A DNA stretch of 36,950 nucleotides, taken from the NCBI GenBank assembly GCA_013044075.1, contig JABEVG010000092.1:1-36950 (forward strand), read 5' to 3'. Positions 2,736 to 8,059 of this stretch are shown in pieces. The translations under genes and the position numbers were made by a program. The DNA is from Gallionella sp. GTDB taxonomy: Bacteria > Pseudomonadota > Gammaproteobacteria > Burkholderiales > Gallionellaceae. Positions within the stretch are counted from its first letter, which is position 1, and the number at the start of each line of letters is the position of its first letter. The notes under the pieces are model-generated. The model worked only from the letters and a program-made list of their open reading frames with translations. It did no database searches and had not been told where the DNA came from.

Positions 2736-5639
2736 CTAAATCAGCCGCTCCTGCACAGGCATCCCATTCATTCGTACTCGTGCGAATTTCAACAATTCCA
2801 CCATGCCGGCTGCCTTGTCGCGCCATTCGTAAAATTGCGTTTCACCCAGCAACACGTAATGCCAATCGCGCCCCATGCGATCACCAGCTTGCAGCGTGTT
2901 GACCCGCTCGCACCATGCGGCGGCGGATTTTAATTTGCGCTGCACGTTGGCGGTGCGCACGTCTTTTTGTGCCTTGGTTTCCACCAGAAAAATCTCCGTT
3001 TCTGTCTTGACCAAAAAGTCCGGCGAGTACATCGCGGGCAGTCCATCGTCCTTGAGATAACGCAGGCGACAAAAGCCGTGTTTGGTCTCGTTGATTTTGC
3101 AGAACGCCTGCACCAGCGCATCTTTTTGCGCCCACTCCATAAAGGCTTTTTCCAGTCCGCCATTGCGCGAGGGAAATGGCTGTCGCTCGTAAATACATTT
3201 GCGCGTCGGGATGGAAAACTCATCGCGCATCGGCAGTTTTTCGACTTCCGACAAATGCCGTTGCGCCACTTCAAATCCGCTGATTTGCTCCGATTCTTCC
3301 GCGCGTAAAATCGCTTCGGCAAATACCTTGATGATGTGTTGCAGCAATGGGTCGAGCAGCAGCAACCGCCAATTTTCGTCTATCAGCGGATTGAATTTTT
3401 CGCCGAATAATTGTGATCGGATATACGTGTCCAGTGCTTGCACCAAGCCCACGGTATGAATTTGCAAATAGGGAAACTTCGCCACGCCGCCGCCGCTTTT
3501 TCCGGTGAGCGGCTGATTCAACACTTGCGACAAACGCGCCGTCATGCGGCTCAGATACTCGTTGTAACCCGTTGCCGTCATCACGCCGCCCTGCACGCGG
3601 TAATCACCGAAGCGTGTGCCGGATTGCACATCGTGCGAGGCGAACACATCGCCTTTCCCCAGCATCTCTTTGAGCTGTTGCTGTGTGTAGCTGCTGAACT
3701 TTGCGATGCCTTCCACCGCCACATTCAGCACGCTCAACTCTTCGTCGTCCTCGCTCAAAATAAACGGAATCGCGAAATCGTATTCCTGATAATTTTCGAC
3801 CAAGCCCACCGAAACCAAATCGCCGATGCTGCTGCCACTGTCTTCACCGCCGTCTATTCCAACCAAGCCTTCTTGCATCAGCTCGTCGTAGAACGATTGA
3901 AAAGCGGGATGCTCAATGACGGACAGCACATCTATCATGCTGTTTGGCTCTTGACCGTTGTGGATGCGCGTGCGGTTTTCTTCTTTGATGTCGCTGTACT
4001 CGTGGTCGCGCCACATCAGCCGCAAGCCGCGTCCGATCGTCTGCTCGAGCAAAATCTGTGCGCCCGTAGTGCGCAGCGGCACGATGACGCAGATGTTGGA
4101 TACGTCAAACCCTTCGCGCAGCATCAGCACGCTGACCAGCACACGCGGCGTTTGATGCTTGTCCACATCGAACAATCGCTCGCGCACTTTTGCCCATTCG
4201 TCCGGTTTCAGCTCGCCTTTTTTACTGCTGTCGATTGCCATCACCTCATCGGCGTGCAGCCCTTCATCCATCAAGAATTGCGCGACCAGCGGCGACACGG
4301 TGGTGTCCTCGCACACCACCATCATTTTTGGGTAACGCTGCGGTGCGATGCGCGCAAAATCCGCCTCCAATTTTTTCAGCTTCGACAGCCCGGCGCGCAG
4401 CATCACGCGCTGCCCCTCCGCCAATATCGGGTTGCCTTCTGCATCGCGCTCGGCCTTGAACTCCAGCGGCAATGCACCGATTTCTTTGCGCTTGTCCAGC
4501 ACCAGCGATTTCACCAAACCTTGACGCATTGCCGCCTTCAAATCGAAGTCCACCGCGATATGCGGGAAGTACGCCTTGCGCGTTTTCGCGCCTGTGCCGA
4601 TCTGGTTGTATGGCGTGGCGGAAAAGTCCAATTGCAGAAAGCGCGCACCTTTGCTCTCGGCGATACGGCTCAAACTCTTTTGCCATTCGACTTCTGTTTG
4701 CTCGCCTTCTTTTTTCAATTCGTGAATGTGGTGTGCCTCGTCGTTCACCACCATCAAGTCGGGCAAGTCAGCGAGAAAATCCAGCACCCCACCGCGTGCA
4801 TAACGTCGGTCTAAAACTTCCAGCGCATTGCCCGTCGCCCGCCCCGGAGTTAATGGCAACAAGGCATTCAATACTTTGATTGGATCAATGTCCGCACCCG
4901 GCGTTGCAATAGCCTCTTCCTCGTCCAGCTCCTCCCCTTCTGCCACCAAAGAATGCCAATTGGTGATGGCAATCAAACCGCCGCTGGTCGCTTGATTGCC
5001 GATAGCTTCTTTGTTGCACACATTGGTTTGCACAAAGCGGAATACCGTGTCGCGGTGAAATTCGGGAATAAACAAATCGGCATATTGGGTCATGTCGGAA
5101 GTCGCAAAATCTCGCTCACCGTTTTTCAGCTTGCCGCTAAAGGCATCCAGCAAACGGTCATACACAATCAAACCGGGCGCGACCAGCAAAAAGTTTTTGG
5201 TGAAGCGTTTGTCGTTAGGTTCGGCGAGTTTGTTCAACAACTGCCACACCAGCAGGGCTTGCAGCACCCACGTCTTGCCTGTGCCTGTTGCCATTTTCAA
5301 ACAGTATTTCGGGTGGCGATGTTTGGCTTGGTCAACTTCCAGCAAGCGACCGCCTGCCAGTAAATCTTCAGGTGCAACTTGCTCATACAGCCCGCGCAAA
5401 CTGGTGACCCCCAACACCTCATGGGCATAAATCACATTCAGAATCGCCTGCCGCTGCCCCACGTGAAAATTAAAACTGCGCATCGCGCAGTAGTCCGCCT
5501 GAAACCACCACTTCAACAATTCCGCCGTGGTGGGGGTGACTAAATCGAGCAGATCGGCAACGCCGTCTTCAAGGCCGATACACACGGCATTGGTCTTGGC
5601 GGTCAGTCCGGCGGCTAGGGGCAAGGGTGAGTTTTTCAT
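2736..5639 (-). CDS. res: Type III restriction enzyme, Res (helicase-endonuclease) subunit
   Basis: This 967-residue protein is the ATP-dependent translocase and nuclease of a type III restriction-modification system. Walker A ATGTGKT is at residues 117-123 and the DEAH box at 300-303. The helicase C-terminal region includes [16 protein letters not shown]. Near the C-terminus, [19 protein letters not shown] gives a PD-(D/E)xK nuclease signature, with likely catalytic residues Asp874, Glu887 and Lys889. Its ATG overlaps the mod stop codon (ATGA), so expression is coupled to the methyltransferase. The reading frame is intact with no repeat insertions, in contrast to mod. The recognition sequence is set by Mod and cannot be read here. 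Confidence 0.9.
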
Positions 5640-8059
5640 GCCACCTCCTGCATTACTTCAGACTCAAAGCCAAACACATCCACCGCCCGCACGCACACGC
5701 GGCGCACCCCCGCCAGCGCAGGCACACTCAACACCGCACGGGTCACGCAGCGCAAAGCATCTTCATCATTCGCGGTGTTGCCGCGATAGTCCTGCCACAC
5801 CGAGCGGAACGTCACGCCGTCGTAAGCTGGGTCAACCGCCCAATACTCAATTAGCGCCAACGGTTCGTGGTTAATCACCTGCTGCAACTTGATGCGATTG
5901 GCTTCATCCAGATTGATGGCATCGGGGGATAGCAGCACATAGTTGTCCAGCTCCACCGTGAGCGTTTCGCTCCCCTCGTCATCTCCGCGCCCCACACTTT
6001 CGTCATTCCCGCGCAGGCGGGAATCCAGCGGGTTTATCAAAAGGGCATCTAGGTTTTGTTCCCCGCTTTGCGGGGAGTTGGTTTGATTATCTGGATTCCC
6101 GCCTGCGCGGGAATGACGGCTACGCATCACAGGCTTCACCGTCAGATATTGCAGCGTGGAAAAACGTATCTCCTTGCGCAGTTTGTCCAGCGCGCCTTTC
6201 TTTTTCAGCCTGTCCAGCAAGTCGGGCGGTATCACCAGCACTTCCAGTTGACCATCGTTCAGCGCTTGCAAATCATGCCCAATCGCGGGGTCGAAATTCC
6301 AACCCAACACCAGCACTTTGTCCCAACCGCCCAGCAAGGTATCACGCAAGGCGATGGCTTTTTTCAGCGTGGCAAGCCCCGTCATCTTGGCGGGCGAATC
6401 CACCAGCACCAACACCTTCCCCCCTCGCCCTTCGGGAGAGGGCTGGGGTGAGGGAGCACTTGAGGGAGCACTTTGTGTACGCGGCAAATACCCCAGATTG
6501 CGATTCGGATTGTCTTCTGCCGCCAGCGGCAACGCGCCGTAAAGCTGCAACACAATCTGCGACAAATCGCCCACTTTGAATTTGCGCCCCAGCGTGGTCT
6601 TGGCACTTTCCACTTGGTAATCGCCGATGGCTTGATACAAAAACGGCTGCGCGTTTTGGTCGATGAGACGTTTGCGCATCACCATGCAGGCGGGCTTGCC
6701 GAGGTCTGTGGTGATCCAGCGACGACCCAGCTTTTCCGCCACCGCAGCTGTCGTGCCGGAGCCGCCGAAGAAATCGGCGACGACGCCGTTTTCGGGGCAT
6801 GAGGCGCGAATAACGCGGCTGAGGAGTTTCTCTGGTTTCTGAGTGTCGTAACTTGTTTTTTCTTTTTGACCCTTCGACAGGTTAATGATGTCGATCCAGT
6901 TTGAGCCAATTGAAAATGCAGCTTCATCTAAATAGTATTTTTTGTAATCACGACCGCTGGAGGATGTGTAAATCAAATTCTCTAACCGCATACGCTCTAT
7001 TGAAGTTTTTGAATAATCGCCAAGTGTCACTTTTTTGAATGCTCGTCCATCGGGGTCTTTATAAATATATTCGCGAAGTTGAGTGTTAGTCAGTTCTTCT
7101 TTGTATAGTTGAGAAAAAAATGTTTTTTCTGTTTTTCCAAAAAACATCAAATGATCGTTTTCTCTCGACCACTGTTTTGACGTACCTTTCGCACCTTTTC
7201 CTGCTGAATCTCTCAGCCAAATAATTTCATTCCTAAAATTTTCTTTCCCAAAAATTTCATCCATCACAATCTTGACGTAATGCCCGACATGCCAATCCAG
7301 ATGCACATAGATCGAACCGCTGTCGCTCAATAGCTCGCGCATCAAAATCAAGCGCGGGGTAATCATCGCCAGATAAGAAGCCGTGCCGTCGCTCCAGGTG
7401 TCGGAGTAGGCGAACTGTTCGATGACGGTGGGCTTTTGTTCCAGCTCCATGCTGCTACTTCCCCCTTTAACAAAGGGGGAGAGCTCGCGAGGGGGCAGAG
7501 GGGGATTTTCGCCCGCTGAAATCCCCCCTAGCCCCCCTTTTGCAAAGGGGGGAGCAATGGCGGGGAGGATCACCTTGGTGCGGTAGTCGGCTTTGGAATC
7601 GAACGGCGGGTCGATGTAAATCAAATCCACTTTGCCGCGCAAGCTGGGCGTGTGTTCGTCGCCCGCCAGCATTGCCGCGATCGCCAGCAAGTTGTCGCCG
7701 TAGATGAGGCGGTTGCTCCACGCACTTTCCAATCCGTCATTCCCGCGCAGGCGGGAATCCAGTGTGTTTGTCGAAAGGGCATCTGGGTTTTGTTCCCCGC
7801 TTTGCGGGGAGTTGCTTTGATTGTCTGGATGGCCGTCCCTCGAAACTTCGCCATACTGGCTCGTTTTCCCGCCTGCGCGGGAATGACGGGCGGGTTGGCG
7901 CAGCAAATCTTTTTGTACCGCGTCTTTGGCAGGGAACACCATCTCGCGGGTTTGCAGAGTGACGCGGTGGCGACTTTCCAGATTTTCTAAAACACGTTCG
8001 GCTTCTTTGCGGGCATTGCTGACGATTTCGGGGAGTTGTTCGAGTAGCGTTTTTGACAT
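5636..8059 (-). CDS. mod: Type III DNA methyltransferase (Mod), with four in-frame repeat insertions
   Basis: This is an 807-residue beta-class N6-adenine/N4-cytosine methyltransferase. Motif IV DPPF is at residues 150-153 and the AdoMet motif [10 protein letters not shown] at 429-437, in that order. The target-recognition region lies between them, at about 275-415. Four stretches read as translated repeats rather than enzyme sequence: residues about 58-108, 167-200, 528-547 and 648-688. Removing them leaves roughly 660 residues, nearer the usual Mod length. The catalytic motifs are not interrupted; insertion 167-200 falls in the loop soon after motif IV. The DNA for the target-recognition part (about 6830-7270) is much richer in A+T than its surroundings; 7081-7140 has 17 G/C in 60. 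Mod is first in a mod-res operon and divergent from an XRE regulator. Whether the invaded enzyme is active is open. Confidence 0.85.
6002..6117. repeat. NIME-like element with dRS3-type ends, copy in the 3' part of mod
   Basis: This 116-bp element has perfect 27-bp terminal inverted repeats (6002-6028 and 6091-6117). Each end contains a palindrome of the form ATTCCC-N8-GGGAAT, the consensus known as dRS3 in Neisseria. The core contains a second hairpin, CCCCGC-TTT-GCGGGG, at 6061-6075. The element is read through in frame by mod, giving the residues HSRAGGNP...DSRLRGND. No target-site duplication is obvious. Confidence 0.8.
6418..6473. repeat. REP-like hairpin in mod plus a 12-bp tandem duplication
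   Basis: A GC-rich hairpin (CCCCTCGCCC-TTC-GGGAGAGGG) followed by GGGGTGAGGG is a common proteobacterial extragenic repeat that translates here as [10 protein letters not shown]. It is followed directly by two copies of GAGGGAGCACTT (6450-6461 and 6462-6473), which add the repeated residues SAPS to Mod. A related repeat lies at 36793-36831. Confidence 0.6.
7458..7555. repeat. Paired TCCCCCTTT/AAAGGGGGA palindromes inserted in mod
   Basis: Two palindromes flank a GC-rich core: TCCCCCTTT-aac-AAAGGGGGA (7460-7480) and CCCCCCTTT-tgc-AAAGGGGGG (7532-7552). The segment is translated in frame as a loop ([11 protein letters not shown]...LSPFVKGGS) right after methyltransferase motif IV. It resembles abundant intergenic repeats of other proteobacteria and is unlike methyltransferase sequence. 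Confidence 0.65.
7736..7887. repeat. NIME-like element with dRS3-type ends, copy in the 5' part of mod
   Basis: This is a second copy of the element at 6002-6117, in the same orientation. It is 152 bp because 36 extra bases (7831-7866) interrupt it next to the right-hand dRS3-like palindrome. The left 27-bp end (7736-7762) is identical to that of the other copy. The extra 36 bp add 12 residues to Mod and keep the frame. Confidence 0.75.

Follow-up and report, generated by a model that had tools for sequence, protein, structure and literature searches.

The neisserial dRS3/NIME repeats are built from ATTCCC-N-GGGAAT half-sites paired around a spacer. Short palindromes that lie in frame within protein-coding genes are described as Rickettsia palindromic elements (RPEs) in the accessible part of PMC10969869. 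The accessible part of Di Nocera et al. 2013 (PMC3733652), in which dRS3 also occurs, reports intragenic GTAG and CGTC repetitive extragenic palindromes (REPs) in several species, with a bias to DNA-repair genes and with a REP at about the same site in recB of two Xanthomonas species; flexible linkers or loops are suggested there as tolerated locations, and the CGTC REPs are reported to lack a dedicated transposase. Judged from these sources, in-frame palindromes are a kind of insertion already known. Here we describe mod, a Type III DNA methyltransferase (modification subunit) gene of Gallionella sp. that remains open through four in-frame repeat inserts of three families. It lies in a stretch of 36,950 nucleotides (GCA_013044075.1, contig JABEVG010000092.1), referred to below as the window; this is contig C58 of genome G000, a draft metagenome-assembled genome (MAG) of 2.2 Mb with a completeness of about 93%. 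We consider it likely that the loops of the Mod protein have been colonised by repeats recurrently and with tolerance, and that the gene is not decaying.

The mod frame (5636..8059; all features given by window coordinates lie on the reverse strand) starts with ATG and encodes 807 amino acids (aa) without an internal stop. Insert S1 (7734..7889), in an N-terminal linker, is a NIME/CGTC-REP dimer (NIME-B) of 156 bp with perfect arms of 24 bp. Insert S2 (7461..7551) consists of paired C5T3/A3G5 palindromes (7461-7479 and 7533-7551) in a two-residue beta-turn, and insert S3, also in a beta-turn, is a REP hairpin of the CCCTCACCC-CCCTCTCCC type with approximate boundaries at about 6424..6456. Insert S4 (6001..6119), in a further beta-turn, is a second NIME/CGTC-REP dimer (NIME-A) of 119 bp, the 28-bp arms of which (6001-6028 and 6091-6118) are perfectly complementary. 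The two dimers share a 101-nt body with 91% identity. Between the flanking core columns of the alignment described below, S1 to S4 comprise 45, 36, 19 and 45 residues, 145 in total, a few of which are native loop residues (the median homologue has 0-2 residues there). The open frame, the three families and the figure of about 145 residues agree with an earlier reading of this DNA, made from the sequence only, which had also recognised two NIME-like elements but had given their lengths as 116 and 152 bp.

Judged by a stem of 8-9 bp, a CGTC end, a CCA-type tail and pairing, the CGTCATTCCCGCGCAGGCGGGAATCCAG arms, which form an inverted pair, correspond to the CGTC-tagged REPs (HH dimers) as described in the accessible part of PMC3733652. 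In the 2.2-Mb genome, the NIME half-site pattern (at most two mismatches) has 59 matches in 40 clusters, showing that this REP is multi-copy, with none for the reversed control. The C5T3 pattern has 18 matches (nine places, on both strands) and the strict REP pattern four, each against a control of 0. Because half-site, C5T3 and REP matches far exceed their controls, the inserts are not products of chance. A looser REP pattern gave 17 matches against a control of 8, a control count due in part to the near identity of the pattern with its own reverse; it was used only for places identified by eye.

We aligned the window Mod with 120 protein homologues among the matches listed and 87 Mod open reading frames (ORFs) from fetched loci. 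Ten of the 208 entries repeat another, leaving 198 distinct sequences; the duplicate Mod loci L031, L123, L124 and L171 count among the rows dropped or limited in the 208, and P0005, P0017, P0021 and P0062 have no S1 sequence. Along the 638-column core, strong length variation occurs at five points only, S1 to S4 and the presumed target-recognition region (residues about 285-400, 6860..7207, boundaries set by eye), and the window's four inserts fall in the four variable loops. Loops at least 8 residues longer than the median are found in 74, 37, 36 and 55 of the 208 sequences at S1, S2, S3 and S4, respectively, the long S1 and S3 loops being partly native sequence and many of these not being scored as repeats; the count is 54 for the target region and at most 7 for any other point. 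In the AlphaFold2 (AF2) model of the insert-free homologue P0010 (mean predicted local distance difference test score, pLDDT, 81; predicted template modelling score, pTM, 0.76), S1 maps to a low-confidence linker, read as disordered, and S2, S3 and S4 map to two- to three-residue beta-turns between strands. As noticed in the sequence-only reading, no insert touches DPPF (residues 150-153, 7601..7612), which we take to be motif IV, or FFGGSGT (residues 430-436, 6752..6772), which we take to be the motif I region, both read in the Mod sequence.

In the homologues, the same four loops hold different repeat families, and some of these loops are hairpins at the DNA level. Thus, mod shows the RPE-like feature of in-frame insertion into a gene that is uninterrupted in homologues. 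At least one labelled repeat insert was found in 79 of the 208 Mods (75 of the 198 distinct ones), and S1 to S4 together present 23 site-by-family combinations, for each of which at least one insertion is needed. Fitch parsimony on the core tree yields 20, 25, 14 and 36 gains at S1 to S4, about 95 in total, a number that recombination between mod alleles could inflate by moving loops. No recognised repeat is present in 180, 171, 179 and 147 of the 208 sequences at S1, S2, S3 and S4. P0012, from Gallionella sp., is the closest Mod among the matches listed (97.4% identity over 491 core columns) and has only the C5T3 insert at S2 in common with the window Mod; S1, S3, S4 and the target region all differ. 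The contig L171 of a relative is also from Gallionella sp. Among 2336 non-independent pairs whose cores are at least 85% identical, the same loop is occupied by different families in 581 of 9344 loop comparisons. Going by these sequence comparisons, loop turnover is fast relative to the core, and because the same four loops are refilled by different families, Mod can be viewed as a conserved chassis in which the target domain and four loops are exchangeable. The comparison with homologues and related genomes that had been proposed with the sequence-only reading therefore places the inserts in four length-variable loops with differing families in relatives. The finding that would have refuted that reading, identical segments kept as protein across distant genera, was not made: these genera have the sites in common, but not the segments. 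A second Type III-like Mod (L122, G011:C6:42500-48000) seems by eye to contain REP, C5T3-like and NIME inserts at three places.

The assignment of the enzyme comes from family models, sequence and the fold of the insert-free homologue. Mod matches the PADLOC model MTase_III (1e-63) and, over residues 144-458, PF01555 (5e-38); it contains an N6/N4 methyltransferase domain in which motif IV precedes motif I, the beta-class order characteristic of a Type III Mod. EcoP15I Mod (4zcf) is the best structure match by sequence (1e-13) and also the best hit in a fold search with the P0010 model (E 1e-22, TM 0.40/0.42). By these matches the product is a Type III Mod, and methylation activity is predicted. 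The target-recognition region is AT-rich (GC 0.37; GC at third codon positions, GC3, 0.33), variable in length and different in the nearest homologues. The start of res (2736..5639) overlaps the stop codon of mod. This 967-aa ORF encodes the Type III restriction subunit (PF04851, 1.3e-12; PADLOC REase_III), and a helicase-type ResIII domain in a gene adjoining mod is as expected of a Type III restriction-modification (R-M) system. The C-terminus of Res shows a weak TnsA-like nuclease match (PF08722), below the cut-off.

A motif scan found no repeat in the window's res, as the sequence-only reading had stated, and its suggestion that mod tolerates insertions well is supported by the different families at the same four loops and by the contrast between the two subunits. 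With a duplicate contig left out, the strict motifs are present in 13 of 88 Mod ORFs but in none of 77 Res ORFs (Fisher 2e-4), nor in any of 205 other ORFs of at least 200 aa. The contrast between Mod and Res rests mainly on the window and its Gallionella relatives, among which 8 of 9 Mods have a motif and the Res sequences number 6, mostly partial. In G049 (L123), a NIME located between mod and res falls inside the stop-to-stop Res frame, although it precedes the likely start. The 43-aa NIME peptide was searched against 5.8 billion proteins, restricted to 444-1412 aa. Of 20 candidates, 17 were hits, and every one of these has a DNA-methyltransferase domain: 16 have PF01555, one is an N6_Mtase/Methylase_S protein, and at least 8 are members of this Mod family. 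With the C5T3 peptide there were two hits, both Mod homologues.

The inserts are not confined to this gene. Among the long-ORF NIME hits read, drawn from 76 genomes of the genus, clearly internal full-length NIMEs in mod are found twice in the window's genome and also in G011 and G049. Further internal NIMEs lie in a second Type III-like mod (G011:C6), an N6-methylase gene (G010:C36, identified by eye) and hsdS (G000:C83), and the hsdS at G000:C1 has one near the N-terminus. Of the hits outside the window's genome, 14 were read; those not named here were rejected as internal inserts, being N-terminal read-through, antisense or spurious, or containing a stop. In the window's genome, REP or C5T3 repeats are in frame in genes with valS, folC, rlmI, class II ribonucleotide reductase, mutY, Memo, flavin monooxygenase, aceF and hsdS domains; a second mod also has such repeats in frame, and a half NIME is present in a UvrD/PD-(D/E)XK gene. 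The hosts aligned against uninterrupted homologues are Mod and MetG. The genome as a whole is permissive to in-frame repeats, and the description of such repeats as normally intergenic, given in the sequence-only reading, proved too strong here. The class II ribonucleotide reductase with the in-frame REP (L233, G000:C93) also matches intein/LAGLIDADG.

Some in-frame inserts carry a nuclease domain. At the MetG linker, 33 loci were read (76 genomes had a match) and labelled by pattern: 25 are empty, 4 contain a bare REP/C5T3 repeat and 4 contain REP-DUF559-REP, all in frame; the last four (L297, L298, L299 and L300) were picked for the nuclease, and the other 29 (L373-L401) are best matches. 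One REP-bounded DUF559 is in metG of the window's genome (C7). DUF559 bounded by REP peptides is likewise in frame in an HrpA-like RNA helicase (gene named by eye) of three relatives (L301, L302 and L303) and in an MmeI-like methyltransferase, both in the window's genome (L305, G000:C110:4622) and in G057:C39 (L304), with further REP-like peptides in the same protein. In neither of the DUF559 proteins, MetG and MmeI-like, did a domain search find a match to intein splicing, and the REP-bounded insert would be kept by the protein. Free-standing nuclease genes of the window's genome are set among the same repeats: on C43, a DUF559 gene (4611-5170, L306) lies between C5T3 palindromes, and on C63, a GIY-YIG gene lies among NIME halves. 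Within this one genome, families seen in mod thus also border nuclease genes, the mark of what we propose to call a nuclease-associated REP. Beside L306, a C5T3 cluster (C43:3764-3871) is in frame in hsdS, after the first target domain. The genome's own GIY-YIG copy (L105, G000:C63:2069-2266) has a short tandem duplication and has lost its C-terminal match; it may be inactive. RAYT was rejected as the mobiliser of these REPs: the Y1/RAYT transposase (PF01797) has no match in this genome, which is about 93% complete, and is found in 5 of 14 control genomes.

The physical association of nucleases and repeats holds across genera. In the genus, 21 of 29 DUF559 loci have flanking inverted repeats (same-locus controls, 1/54), and elsewhere in the class 16 of 29 do (0/54); hairpins with a stem of at least 7 are present on both flanks at 16 of 29 (3/54) and 19 of 29 (1/54) loci, respectively. 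For L309-type GIY-YIG genes, inverted repeats flank 17 of 22 testable loci in other genera (controls, 0/44), or 18 of 23 when the own genome's copy is included, and the CGTC half-site is found on both flanks at 12 of 23 loci (0/44) and on either flank at 15 of 23 (1/44). A gene-bounded control, with 114 of its 134 members from other genomes, gave a single case, and random intervals gave 3 of 600. Cross-pairing gave high counts (78/290 for DUF559, 18/293 for GIY-YIG) because different loci hold the same repeat family, and the same-locus, random and gene-bounded controls were used in its place. Counted from the domain match, each flank spanned 250 bp for DUF559 and for the controls and 300 bp for GIY-YIG, with 7 of 30 GIY-YIG class loci (one short flank, six without the motif) and 1 of 30 DUF559 genus loci (short flank) excluded. 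The best PF01541 hits in the genus are mostly of another GIY-YIG type, flanked by inverted repeats in 3 of 30 cases; as these best hits of the GIY-YIG family are mostly unflanked, the link applies to the L309 subtype. GIY-YIG loci with CGTC/NIME flanks across genera are L307, L308, L309 and the class loci L342-L371. Other GIY-YIG genes (L276, L281 and L282) are flanked by a CCGTTCGTCCTGAGCTTGTCGAAGG-type palindrome that seemingly also occurs as peptide in Mod loops, and two GIY-YIG genes are located less than 1 kb upstream of a Mod homologue (G049:C2:48148-48369 and G041:C205:2848-3069).

In the explanation we propose, each of the four inserts would be a short palindromic mobile element, non-autonomous and belonging to one of three families, that had landed in a Mod turn or linker tolerant of extra residues, the survivors being those insertions that kept the frame and added no stop. 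If only such insertions survive, the gene stays open and its chassis remains under purifying selection. The elements could have been spread by nuclease-bearing relatives, DUF559-carrying ones for REP/C5T3 and GIY-YIG-carrying ones for NIME/CGTC; nuclease-bearing copies are present in the same genome (C7, C43, C110 and C63). Insertion would occur in flexible linkers, and the host genes would be conserved ones that often act on DNA or RNA; no splicing domain would be involved, and the MetG, HrpA-like and MmeI-like genes would hold the armed form. None of the 208 Mod sequences contains a DUF559 or GIY-YIG motif, so the inserts in the four Mod loops would be the bare form. Mod would be active despite its inserts. 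We are evenly divided on the broader proposition that non-RAYT REPs are nuclease-driven mobile elements, with CGTC/NIME as the ends of a GIY-YIG element, the CCCTCTCCC-type REP and C5T3 as the ends of DUF559 elements, and in-frame insertion into linkers in armed or bare form.

Alternatively, the nuclease genes could be passengers, residing in or beside REPs without mobilising them. We regard this as possible, although it is the less probable view. The link is one of association, REPs are common between genes, and just 3 of the 30 best whole-family GIY-YIG hits in the genus have the inverted repeats. In addition, a Caulobacter DUF559 protein is proposed to act in mismatch repair in the accessible part of PMC12907096; according to the same source, cells without a cytosine methyltransferase depend on it for their SOS response, a result that fits DUF559 as a nuclease. 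Mere residence among repeats sits poorly with the gene-bounded control of 1/134, with the pairing of distinct nuclease types with distinct repeat families in many genera and with the in-frame REP-nuclease-REP units in the MetG, HrpA-like and MmeI-like genes.

As for the loops themselves, their diversity could stem mostly from recombination among insert-bearing mod alleles, with few fresh insertions. Proteins whose cores are about 97% identical have clearly different target regions, and the 581 family differences among 9344 loop comparisons, from non-independent pairs, could be read in this way. However, each of the 23 site-by-family combinations, as far as our labels define them, still needs an original insertion, and the same families occupy unrelated genes of the same genome. 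We therefore find this explanation somewhat doubtful.

Co-option, which the sequence-only reading had raised as a possibility, gained no support and appears unlikely. The inserts would then be selected to tune Mod activity, Mod-Res assembly, expression via RNA hairpins or target-domain-swapping recombination. The R-M bias of the NIME peptide (17/17 proteins with DNA-methyltransferase domains, at least 8 of this Mod family) is in line with selection, as is the arrangement in which inserts flank the target region on both sides and loops and target region vary together. Yet most sequences have no recognised repeat in any given loop, near-identical Mods have unrelated sequence there, and the same elements recur elsewhere, among other proteins in AceF and in the linker of MetG. 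A general role as homology arms for target-domain exchange was rejected: neighbouring alleles hold different families, and inserts of different families cannot serve as homology arms between alleles.

Decay, the other possibility raised at that time, would make mod a pseudogene in which repeats pile up once selection is gone, and we judge it very unlikely. The assembly is a draft MAG, four inserts share a single gene, and a relative has a possibly broken mod fragment with a NIME (see below). Against this, the frame is open through all four inserts, which are restricted to turns or a linker, and res is a 967-aa open frame. The matched parts of eight close relatives, among them insert-bearing ones, contain no stops (one relative is split over two contigs and one is cut by a contig end). 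Compared with these eight relatives, core dN/dS (ratio of nonsynonymous to synonymous substitution rates) is 0.08-0.20 at dS 0.8-1.3, an average that may span time before the inserts arrived in this lineage; the core has been under purifying selection since divergence. These comparisons suggest a functional Mod with tolerated loops. An assembly or sequencing artefact, suggested by the draft state of the MAG and by 91%-identical repeats within one gene, is hardly credible given the same architecture at the same sites in other assemblies of related species.

Several points weigh against tolerated colonisation by nuclease-driven elements. The 120 protein homologues were found with an insert-bearing query; the 79 GTDB loci, which were picked by conserved motifs regardless of inserts, include a labelled repeat in 9, from several genera of Pseudomonadota. 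In the GTDB loci alone, the contrast between subunits is weaker: 5 of 79 Mods and none of 74 Res have a strict motif (p about 0.06). Family labels are our own peptide patterns, with multi-copy status confirmed only for NIME, C5T3 and REP in this genome. The gain counts and the dN/dS average carry the caveats given above. The AF2 model of the insert-bearing window Mod is poor (pTM 0.41). At G011:C40:22058-22309, a 173-aa frame joins a match to Mod residues 1-51 directly to a NIME peptide and may be a broken copy of mod. For the nucleases, the tie to repeat mobility is association only, and none of the 208 Mods contains either nuclease motif.

If recurrent colonisation by nuclease-driven elements is correct, Mod would be a standing record of repeated landings, and the question of 2013, what mobilises CGTC REPs, would be answered. 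GIY-YIG (for CGTC) and DUF559 (for two other families), located between repeat copies in many genera, provide a testable candidate machinery for REP biology. The loops of an R-M enzyme would be rewritten by repeat DNA faster than the core changes, with the core still selected, making the Mod loops a natural experiment in insertion tolerance and potentially a source of new protein segments. We found no report of the same four loops of one gene being refilled by many families in the literature searched, and none pairing REP families with DUF559 or GIY-YIG nucleases in a search by title and abstract, subscription papers lying mostly outside both.

Compared with known systems, the mod inserts resemble RPEs, as far as the accessible source describes these, in being short in-frame palindromes of several families found in unrelated genes; unlike RPEs, they lie four to a single R-M gene, drawn from three families, and across genera its four loops are occupied by different families. 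With the intragenic GTAG/CGTC REPs of the accessible part of PMC3733652, they share the CGTC tag, the HH dimers and the in-frame location; its main text does not contain the terms restriction, methylase, methyltransferase or hsd, and, unlike the REPs described there, those studied here flank a GIY-YIG nuclease gene. RAYT/REPIN systems likewise combine REP hairpins with a candidate mobility enzyme, but no Y1_Tnp domain was found in this genome, and the associated enzymes are DUF559 and GIY-YIG nucleases. Neisserial dRS3/NIME has the same ATTCCC-N-GGGAAT half-sites paired around a spacer, and differs from the repeats described here in that these have a Gallionella-type host and a coding location. 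As in homing endonucleases and inteins, a conserved gene (that of MetG) holds a nuclease domain in frame, at a site that is empty in relatives; unlike in inteins, there is no intein-splicing match, and the REP-bounded insert would be retained in the protein. Set against these systems, what appears to be new is the four-loop hot spot, together with the forms that carry a nuclease.

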